DNA of 64,000 nt. Source: Crossiella sp. CA-258035 (GTDB lineage: Bacteria > Actinomycetota > Actinomycetes > Mycobacteriales > Pseudonocardiaceae). The position numbers and the translations under genes are program-made. The stretch is from assembly GCF_030064675.1 (NCBI RefSeq), contig NZ_CP116413.1, positions 1 through 64,000 on the forward strand, in the 5' to 3' direction. Under the pieces are notes generated by a model, which was not told where the DNA came from, did not search any database, and saw only the letters and a list, made by a program, of their open reading frames with translations. Below, one piece after another: positions 4,500 through 16,938 of the stretch (position 1 is the first letter of the stretch; each line of letters starts with the position of its first letter).

Positions 4500-5654
4500 T
4501 TGTACGTCCGAGCGTTGCAGGTCGCCGACTTCCGGTCCTGGGAGTCCGCCGACCTGGTCTTCGAGCCTGGGCCGAGTGTGCTGGTCGGCCAGAACGGCCA
4601 GGGCAAGACCAACCTGGTCGAGGCCATCGGCTACGTGGCCACCCTGTCCTCGCACCGGGTGGCCACCGACGCACCGCTGGTCCGGCAGGGTGCGCCGCGG
4701 TCGGTGGTGCGCACCGCAGTGGTGCACCACGGCCGGGAGCTGCTGGTCGAACTGGAGATCACCCCCGGCAAGGCGAACCGGGCTCGGATCAACCGGGCCC
4801 CGGTGCCCAAGCCGAGGGAGGTGCTCGGCATCCTGCGCACCGTGCTGTTCGCGCCGGAGGACCTGGCGCTGGTCAGGGGCGATCCCGGCGAGCGGCGGCG
4901 GTTCCTGGACGACCTGCTGGTGCTGCGCGCACCACGCTTCGCCGGTGTGCGCGCGGATTATGAACGAGTGCTCAAGCAGCGCGGCGCCCTGCTGAAAACC
5001 GCAGGTTCGGCGCGTCGGGCGGGCAGCAGCGGGGATATTCGCACCCTGGACGTGTGGGACGGGCACCTGGCCAGGCACGGCGCGGTGCTGCTGGCCGCGC
5101 GGCTGGACCTGGTGGCCGCGCTGCAGCCGCTGGTGTCCGCCGCCTACGCGGGGGTGGCGCCGGAATCGCGACCCGCCGAGGTGAAGTACCGCAGTTGCCT
5201 GGGTGCGGCCCTGCCGGAGGGTTACGGTGTGGCAGGCGGTCCGCCGGCGGACATCGCGACCTTGGAAGCGGTGCTGCTGGCCGAGGTCGCCAAGGTGCGG
5301 ACCCAGGAGATCGACCGAGGGGTCAGTCTCATCGGTCCGCACCGGGACGAGCTGGAGCTGATCCTCGGCAGCACACCGGCCAAGGGATATGCCAGCCACG
5401 GCGAGTCCTGGTCCTTCGCGCTCGCGCTGCGACTGGCGGCCTTCGAGCTGCTGCGCGCGGAGGACGTCGAGCCGGTGCTGATCCTCGACGACGTGTTCGC
5501 CGAGCTGGACCGGCGGCGACGGCAGCGGCTGGCCGAGGTGGCCGCCGCCGCGGAGCAGGTCCTGGTCACCGCCGCGGTGGCCGAGGACGTCCCGGCCGAG
5601 CTGGCAGGCGCCCGCTACGAGGTGGGTGAAGGGAAGGTCGAGCGTGTCCGGTGA
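4500..5654 (+). CDS. recF: DNA replication/repair protein RecF
   Basis: RecF is an SMC-like ATPase that loads RecA at gaps through RecFOR. The protein has 384 residues, with Walker A GQNGQGKT at 30-37, an ABC-type signature in the [12 protein letters not shown] region and Walker [13 protein letters not shown] near the C-terminus. The start is a TTG at 4500 giving [14 protein letters not shown], which fits the usual RecF N-terminus; no better start exists in frame. It follows gnd by 3 bp and its stop overlaps the dciA start (GTGA), indicating translational coupling. Confidence 0.97.
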
Positions 5655-6322
5655 CCAGCCGTCAACCGGGTGTGACGCGTCGCACTCCTGGGGACAACCC
5701 TGTGGATAATGTGGATAACTCCGTCACGCGTGGGGATGTGCCACCACCTGACCCGGGTACTGATCGACCCTCCGTCACCTCTCCAGGTGGATTCACTGCG
5801 GAGGGTGAACACGGACTGCGAGGGGTCGACCTGGCCAAGATGGCCCTGGCCGAGGCCCGCGCCGCCAACAAGCTGAAGCGGGACGCGGCCAAGGCCGCCC
5901 AGGCGCCGCGCGCGGGCGGGGCCAACGCGCAGCGCCGCCGCCGGTGGTCCGGGCCGGGAGTGGACCACCGGGACCCGCAGCCGCTGGGCGCGCTGGCCGC
6001 GCGGATCGCCAGCGAGCGCGGCTGGACCGACAAGCTCTCCGGTGGCACCGTGTTCGGCAGCTGGGCCAAGCTGGTCGGGGCCGAGGTGGCCGAGCACGCC
6101 ACCCCGCTCGCGCTCAAGGATGGTGAGCTGACCGTGCAGGCCAGCTCCACCGCATGGGCGACCCAGCTCAAGCTGCTCCAGCGCCAGCTGCTCAGCCAGA
6201 TCCGCGCCGGAGTGGGCAAAGACGTGGTCAAACGTCTGCGGGTGCAGGGACCGGCCGCGCCGAGCTGGCGGTACGGACCACGCCACGTGCCCGGCCGCGG
6301 CCCGCGAGACACCTATGGGTGA
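5651..6322 (+). CDS. dciA: DUF721 protein, DciA-type replicative helicase loader/operator
   Basis: DciA-family proteins interact with the replicative helicase DnaB and are needed for initiation in bacteria lacking DnaC/DnaI. This 223-residue protein occupies the position of mycobacterial Rv0004. The conserved part begins near residue 57 ([24 protein letters not shown]) and continues into the DUF721 core (about 110-205: [37 protein letters not shown]). The first 55 residues look unstructured, and several in-frame GTG codons (5672, 5702, 5711) could serve as alternative starts; 5651 is chosen for its GTGA overlap with recF. DnaA boxes lie inside this 5' segment. Confidence 0.9.
5689..5718. promoter_or_regulatory. 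Cluster of three DnaA boxes inside the dciA 5' end
   Basis: TGGGGACAA (5689-5697), TGTGGATAA (5701-5709) and TGTGGATAA (5710-5718) stand in the same orientation. The last two are exact complements of the classical box TTATCCACA, a better match than any box in oriC. They encode [10 protein letters not shown] in the non-conserved N-terminus of DciA. Function is inferred. Confidence 0.6.
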
Positions 6323-6429
6323 CGTGGCGCGGCTGGTTTTCTCCCAGGCCTCTTGACACCGATTCTCCGCACTCCGGACCCGGACAACTTGTTCTTCGGT
6401 CTTCTATGACCGTCTCAGGGGTGTCCTAG

Positions 6430-8493
<2,064 letters not shown>

Positions 8494-16522: not shown

Positions 16523-16555
16523 TGTGGAAAAAGTTATCCACAGGAGTTGTCCCCA
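16523..16555. promoter_or_regulatory. DnaA-box cluster between PH-domain gene and crgA
   Basis: TGTGGAAAA (16523-16531) faces the perfect box TTATCCACA (16534-16542), and TTGTCCCCA follows at 16547-16555. The first two form an inverted repeat, CCTGTGGA (16521-16528) with TCCACAGG (16537-16544). It lies upstream of the minus-strand PH-domain gene (start 16415). A DnaA-binding function is inferred. Confidence 0.5.
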
Positions 16556-16618
16556 CTGGGGATGACTTACATCCGTGTGGTTCAGTGACCCTCCGCCAAA
16601 CGGGGGGTGAACGTGGCA

Positions 16619-16671: not shown

Positions 16672-16938
16672 TCAGCGCCAGCGCATGGTCATCAGCAGAC
16701 CAGTGATCATCAGCGCGAAGCCGACCGCGAAGTTCCACGAGCCGAGGTCGGCCATGAACTGGATGTCCTGGCCCGCGAGGTAGTACACGACCAGCCAGGC
16801 CAGCCCGAGCAGCATCACCAGCAGCATCACCGTGATGTAGATCGGGTGTGAGGGCCCCTTGGCCTTCAGCTTGACCGGCGTGCGCCGGTCCGGCGGCGGC
16901 GTGTAGACGTCCTTCTTGCGGACCTTGGACTTCGGCAT
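16672..16938 (-). CDS. crgA: Cell division protein CrgA
   Basis: Small membrane protein of the actinobacterial divisome and elongation interface; it binds FtsZ, FtsI and PBPs in mycobacteria and delays septation in Streptomyces. It has 88 residues from ATG 16938 ([23 protein letters not shown]), preceded by GCGAGGACAG on the minus strand. Two membrane helices (about 33-53 and 64-84) are joined by a short periplasmic loop, the standard CrgA layout. The frame is open 49 codons further upstream without homology. The place beside a DUF881 gene is conserved. Confidence 0.96.

Follow-up and report, generated by a model that had tools for sequence, protein, structure and literature searches.

A conserved triad of putative DnaA boxes within the dciA gene of Pseudonocardiaceae

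The 5' part of the dciA gene of Crossiella sp. CA-258035 was found to carry a 31-bp element composed of three head-to-tail putative DnaA boxes, and this element recurs in nearly all of the genomes of the family Pseudonocardiaceae that were searched. Our preferred interpretation, held with moderate confidence on the strength of sequence comparison, is that the element is a DnaA-binding site overprinted on the dciA frame and kept by selection on the DNA, and that it most likely provides DnaA-responsive control of the dciA-gyr region.

Results

Three tandem putative DnaA boxes at the 5' end of dciA

The window, that is, the whole 64-kb stretch of DNA that was analyzed, presumably contains, in this order, dnaA, the oriC gap, dnaN, a 6-phosphogluconate-dehydrogenase-like gene, recF, dciA, gyrB, and gyrA. 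The same gene order was recovered by tblastn in stretches L285 and L286. The recF ORF (4500-5654, plus strand) is followed by the dciA ORF (5651-6322, plus strand), which encodes a helicase loader by homology, has Crossiella proteins as its nearest titled relatives in a protein search, and has a GTG start that overlaps the recF stop. Translation of dciA may begin at this GTG (5651) or at a later in-frame GTG such as the one at 5672, and both precede the boxes.

The element (5689-5719, minus strand), recognized by its pattern and its conservation in the family, consists of three boxes at offsets 0, 12, and 21. The first box, TTGTCCCCA (5689-5697, minus strand), is presumed to be weak; it differs by one mismatch from TTGTCCACA and by two from TTATCCACA, and it mostly reads TTRTCCCCA in the family. 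The second (5701-5709) and third (5710-5718) boxes, which abut one another on the minus strand, are both TTATCCACA, so that two of the three 9-mers match the consensus TTRTCCACA exactly; in the family, CTATCCACA or CCATCCACA is frequent at the second place. Head-to-head with the first box lies the place of a weak inverted half-box (5681-5686, plus strand), for which the family consensus is CCCACA and which is degenerate in the window (CGCACT). A preliminary description of this DNA had reported two adjacent exact boxes and one near-match in a single orientation, in coding DNA outside the conserved domain. The boxes were confirmed; they correspond to dciA codons ~13-23 and lie ahead of the segment common to most distant relatives, whose protein matches to DciA mostly begin near residue 30-60 or later.

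Matches to TTATCCACA with at most one mismatch numbered six in the window against 1.97 expected, a count reached in 1 of 100 shuffles. The exact tandem TTATCCACA pair occurs once in the genome of 9,170,171 bases, as does the pattern TGGGGAYAANNNTGTGGAYRRTGTGGAYAA at up to two mismatches; at three mismatches a second genomic place appears, at 8,909,695. The locus thus holds at least three clustered boxes outside the dnaA-dnaN gap, beyond chance expectation, which places it among DnaA-box clusters outside oriC. A chance origin of the triad was ruled out by the shuffles together with the family genome search, in which the reversed-pattern control gave 0 matches.

Conservation in the family and its exceptions

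A slightly looser pattern matched 241 of 249 family genomes and all 46 genera, again with a reversed-pattern control of 0, and the match was single in all but 8 of the 241. Absence of the boxes from relatives, the outcome that the preliminary description had named as telling against it, was thus not what was found. The position at dciA was confirmed for the fetched loci: when duplicates were removed on an 80-bp key, 133 distinct loci were left out of 173, and in each of them the element lies 12-150 bp past the recF stop. Of the 173, the pattern search had supplied 30 and dciA protein searches the other 143. The element was present in 143 of 144 dciA-fetched loci when L041 (Actinopolyspora biskrensis) is counted, a family member that has no element and was left out of the 173-locus set as an out-group. 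The recF-dciA junction of one record (L028), titled Rhodococcus rhodnii NRRL B-16535, resembles that of Kibdelosporangium aridum (L031); the record is possibly mislabelled and was counted within the family.

Among the eight non-matching genomes, four (G072, G117, G164, and G198) are true losses, all in the genus g38. The misses in G157 and G195 coincide with N gaps at the junction or stretch above dciA, and dciA was not found in G671. Another g38 member, G038, carries a degenerate copy that agrees at 23 of 27 positions. The other five g38 members searched have a version of the element with a damaged first box, TGGGGATCGAACTGTGGACRSTGTGGACAA. Stages of decay can be followed in this genus (L307-L314), from a damaged first box through a remnant to complete loss.

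The reading frame through the element is kept open

Between the element and the AWATQL motif of DciA, the dciA frame was free of stops in 133 of 133 loci over 129-273 codons, with 45 different whole-codon lengths, and the other two frames contained stops in 260 of 266 cases. Within 120 bases upstream of the element, 124 of 131 loci had an ATG or GTG in frame. Because the frame through it is kept open, the element is most likely translated, i.e. overprinted on coding sequence. The suggestion in the preliminary description that the N-terminal segment exists mainly because of the DNA sites gained no support: the segment stays in frame across that whole range of lengths.

The bases are conserved beyond the encoded residues

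Mean pairwise identity in the 133 loci was 0.90 for the element, 0.30-0.42 for non-overlapping 30-base windows of the flanks, and 0.66-0.80 for the conserved DciA domain. Beyond ~10 bases on either side of the element, information was mostly below 0.6 bit, with single columns up to 0.82. The core TGTGGA of the second and third boxes was present in 133 of 133 loci, the core of the first box was TGGGGA in 131 and TGTGGA in 2, and the third box was TTATCCACA or TTGTCCACA in 132. Slow divergence as the cause was ruled out by flanks that are only 30-42% identical, and, because the flanks are saturated, shared descent alone does not explain the conservation.

The codons of the element point the same way. 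The residue is P, S, A, T, or V at codon 4 and S, G, N, A, T, D, or C at codon 7, and the third base was T at both codons in all 133 loci, against 8.9 and 17.0 expected; GAT was the codon at position 6 in 111 loci and at position 9 in 113 of the 133, against ~21 expected, where the expectations derive from recF and dciA codon usage in the same loci and the loci are related rather than independent. Because third bases are fixed where the amino acids vary, the bases, and not only the residues, are evidently kept by selection on the DNA. The comparison of boxes with encoded residues that the preliminary description had proposed thus turns out in its favor.

Box geometry at oriC and upstream of dnaA

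The dnaA-dnaN gap (1618-2397), taken as oriC, contains a doublet, TTGTCCCCA/CTGTCCACA, at 1964 and 1976, spaced 12 bp apart. The preliminary description had held all oriC boxes to be imperfect, which stands for the gap itself, where there is no perfect TTRTCCACA, and has to be narrowed by a perfect TTGTCCACA that falls just beyond the edge of the window, ~70 bp upstream of dnaA (L287 10101). In two genomes of the genus Crossiella, tandem boxes 12 bp apart were seen ~60-75 bp upstream of dnaA (L287 10101-10121 and L286 1540-1560).

Spacings were counted for boxes within one mismatch of TTRTCCMCA in 54 of 66 family loci, 12 having been skipped for an odd dnaA-dnaN distance. Upstream of dnaA the commonest same-strand spacing was 12 bp (24 pairs), and in oriC the leading same-strand spacings were 22, 12, and 11 bp (45, 40, and 40 pairs). 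The dciA element resembles a compact excerpt from this putative box grammar.

Perfect TTRTCCACA boxes were lacking in 18 of 87 distinct family oriC regions (L054, which is not of the family, excluded), and at least one was present at the recF-dciA junction in 82 of the 87. The distance from the element to the dnaN start had a median of 3,312 bp and a maximum of 3,867 bp in 107 loci, the minimum of -810 being taken as a stray dnaN match. Compensation, in which loss of the element would be offset by stronger oriC boxes, was not supported: the four g38 genomes without the element have 1, 3, 3, and 3 perfect oriC boxes, and four other g38 genomes have 3 each.

A second putative array follows crgA

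A box scan located a second putative DnaA-box array at 16523-16565, off the 3' end of crgA (16675-16938, minus strand), with the layout TGTGGAAAA AG TTATCCACA GGAG TTGTCCCCA C TGGGGATGA. Of 200 family genomes searched for its last three boxes at up to two mismatches, 131 gave a match; these cover 35 of 46 genera, and the control was 0. When 12 stretches were fetched blind, crgA and the array were both present in 5 and both absent in 7; when 10 were picked by the array, crgA adjoined it in 9 and was not found in 1. With the window, which holds both, crgA adjoins the array in 15 of 16 array-holding stretches. Where both are present, the array lies ~50-142 bp past the crgA 3' end, and it does so at ~16 kb as well as at ~54 kb into dnaA-first contigs. 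This putative array is linked to the gene, and its place beside crgA across the family suggests gene-linked roles.

A five-box cluster was also observed at 8,909,531-8,909,724 of the same genome (L281 9532-9725), with similar matches in relatives G016 and G086; if the chromosome is circular, it lies ~260 kb from dnaA on the other side. Its neighbors are genes that we take to be clpB-like and phosphohistidine-phosphatase-like.

Arrays outside the family are sporadic

At up to one mismatch, no junction boxes were found in any of the 26 set-apart loci from the first dciA search (L041 included). In a further search, 28 analyzable loci gave at least one junction box in 6, two or more in 3, and none in 22; in a further set of 30 loci, at least one was present in 7 and two or more in 6. 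With 26 of 26 and 22 of 28 loci boxless at this threshold, junction arrays as a general actinobacterial feature were not supported.

The loci that do carry boxes differ from one another. In G202 (family f4), boxes at offsets 0, 12, and 21 follow the recF stop in another frame, ahead of the ATG taken as the dciA start; two or more boxes occur in 2 of 15 f4 genomes, and 13 of 15 have no such array. In G437 (family f8, genus g102), the geometry is the exact reverse complement, 0, 9, and 21, within a different peptide, and the inverted triad was found in 3 of 18 g102 genomes, at the junction in all three. In the genus g65, an inverted pair 12 bp apart occupies a junction of 381-452 bp in 5 of 6 fetched genomes; the perfect inverted pair was found in 6 of 59 genomes, beside recF in all 6 and with dciA in the stretch in 5. 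G222 (family f11) has a perfect 30-mer triad in inverted orientation in the gyrB-gyrA gap (L232 4783-4812) and not at dciA; the one other f11 genome searched was without a perfect triad. Finally, 11 of 15 genomes of family f32, which lies outside the order, gave related triads when up to three mismatches were allowed, and six fetched stretches (L272-L277, 12-19 kb) have triads in or near other genes, partly in coding DNA, with no dnaA, dciA, or gyr match. The f32 neighbors are presumably a PadR-like C-terminus beside an inositol-phosphate-synthase-like gene, and pcnA- and murJ-like genes. The putative out-of-family arrays are thus sporadic: some lie upstream of dciA, and others are inverted, either within a different peptide or in the gyrB-gyrA gap. 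Where they occur they decouple the DNA from the protein.

Discussion

A proposed DnaA-responsive element of the dciA-gyr region

The best reading of these comparisons is that DnaA would control dciA, with an origin-side site of initiation control as a close rival. DnaA may bind the element cooperatively, head to tail, as on the 12-bp doublets upstream of dnaA and in oriC, and the sequences predict an order of affinity in which the third box is the strongest. Bound DnaA would rise before initiation, and the copy number of the element would double early because it lies ~3.3 kb from oriC. The bound protein could then limit or time transcription that runs into dciA or begins there, perhaps with gyrB downstream included, with the outcome that the supply of helicase loader would follow the state of DnaA.

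The recurrence of arrays 5' of dciA in several lineages favors control of dciA, as do the tandem 12-bp boxes upstream of dnaA. Support also comes from other lineages, whose arrays between recF and the dciA domain differ in sequence, frame, or orientation. The putative crgA array is gene-linked, and gene control for the dciA array is therefore mildly favored. Precedent exists in the DnaA autoregulation described at the dnaA promoters of Streptomyces lividans and slow-growing mycobacteria (excerpts of PMC8203912). A promoter scan of 5400-6560 returned no promoter-like sites, although it covered the sigma-70-type consensus only and 0.0 were expected by chance, and no promoter-like motif stood out at a fixed distance from the element in the 133 aligned loci; a roadblock to read-through transcription is therefore as likely as repression of a promoter.

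Several observations weigh against gene control. The boxes sit past the probable dciA start codon, the triad of G222 lies at gyrB-gyrA, four g38 genomes have no element, 13 of 15 f4 loci and nearly all other sampled families are without such an array, and the f32 arrays are in other genes. In B. subtilis, DnaA peaks inside genes are known in vitro, and a DnaA site in the rplB frame was bound in vitro and not detectably in vivo, perhaps through transcription (excerpts of PMC4447404); this precedent counts against any role inside a transcribed gene.

Alternative readings

The closest alternative is a station of initiation control on the origin side, in the form of a DnaA-box cluster, a datA- or DARS-like site, or the strong half of an origin in two parts. 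On this view, DnaA that assembles on the element would be sequestered, changed in its nucleotide state, or looped to oriC, and the surrounding gene would be incidental. We regard this as a real possibility, held tentatively. The short distance to the origin (the median of 3,312 bp to dnaN) is consistent with it, as are the 18 family oriC regions and the oriC of the window that have no perfect box while most junctions have one, and the oriC of Kutzneria albida has been reported to be without classic boxes (in the part of PMC4210621 that describes it). The flips in orientation, the inverted copy of G222 between gyrB and gyrA, and the f32 arrays in other genes also favor this reading. According to passages of two reviews (PMC5742627, PMC5295017), box clusters outside oriC restrain initiation in B. 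subtilis and S. coelicolor; however, the same passages of PMC5295017 state that no cluster with a significant role had been identified in B. subtilis and that a strong effect appeared only when all six were removed. The recurrence of arrays on the 5' side of dciA in several lineages also argues against a station, as does the crgA array, which follows crgA at ~16-54 kb and keeps no single distance. Three boxes would moreover titrate little DnaA, and plain titration beside a box-richer oriC would, by inference, be the weakest of the suggestions made in the preliminary description. It seems unlikely, though worth stating, that the dciA and crgA arrays work together to switch DnaA in the manner of DARS or datA, or that they supply the high-affinity arm of an origin that is bipartite in function, in either case offsetting an oriC with few or no perfect boxes.

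Recognition of the 31-mer by a DNA-binding protein other than DnaA appears improbable. DnaA binding is predicted, and the first and second boxes deviate from the consensus in a constant manner; however, the third box is a perfect TTATCCACA or TTGTCCACA in all but one of the 133 loci, the 12-bp spacing is also seen ahead of dnaA and within oriC, and the genus g102 shares the boxes in inverted order and not the 31-mer. More improbable still is that the conserved entity is the peptide GDNPVDxVDN, as a DciA protein motif with the boxes as a by-product. The element does occupy the same open dciA frame in 133 of 133 loci and the V and D residues are nearly invariant, but rare bases are fixed at third positions, codons 4 and 7 differ between loci in amino acid and not in that base, and outside the family the geometry recurs in another frame, inverted, or in another gene gap; the codon-level evidence rules out a pure protein motif as the sole cause and already largely refutes this reading. 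Least probable is an RNA-level element of structure or translation control in the dciA mRNA, for which the site near the start of the reading frame would be suitable and against which stand the lack of an Rfam match, a fold of the window sequence that was no better than shuffles (z -0.34, single sequence), and the inverted occurrences elsewhere.

Meaning for initiation in actinobacteria

How actinobacteria couple the level of DnaA to helicase loading is an open question; according to the abstract of PMC5720831, no homolog of any known helicase loader or DnaA regulator has been identified in mycobacteria. A DnaA-type element that sits within the loader gene in nearly every genome of the family, with codon-level signs of selection on the DNA, would offer a direct place to probe the link between DnaA and helicase loading by synonymous recoding. 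The conservation of the element suggests that two steps in the initiation of chromosome replication are linked by control, and the crgA array hints that initiation, helicase loading, and division may be connected in a small DnaA regulon. More generally, a replication gene can carry a second message at the level of the DNA. In the titles and abstract openings of the open-access literature, no earlier account of DnaA boxes in dciA or of the crgA array was found; subscription papers may hold one.

Comparison with known systems

Like the DnaA-box clusters of B. subtilis and the cluster of S. coelicolor, the dciA element is a group of putative DnaA boxes outside oriC. It differs from them in being one short triad of fixed geometry at one position of the dciA frame family-wide, with apparent selection on the DNA at the codon level. 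With the autoregulatory sites of actinobacterial dnaA promoters it shares tandem same-strand boxes 12 bp apart; unlike them, it lies inside a reading frame, has a third, abutting box, and has no recognized promoter.

The datA locus of E. coli lies far from oriC. Its essential boxes share one orientation (excerpts of PMC5742627), as do those of the dciA element. An IHF site between the boxes is required at datA (excerpts of PMC5835720), whereas the boxes of the dciA element are 3 and 0 bp apart and leave no room for one. A region of high box density near oriC and titration of DnaA have also been described in E. coli (PMC12371093).

The core of E. coli DARS1 and DARS2 consists of three boxes at fixed spacing, with box I opposite to II and III (excerpts of PMC5742627). 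The putative crgA array has this topology and fits DARS better than the dciA element does. In the family consensus, the dciA element approaches it through the weak inverted half-box before the tandem boxes, which is degenerate in the window, and we put this forward as a likeness and not as a claim of homology.
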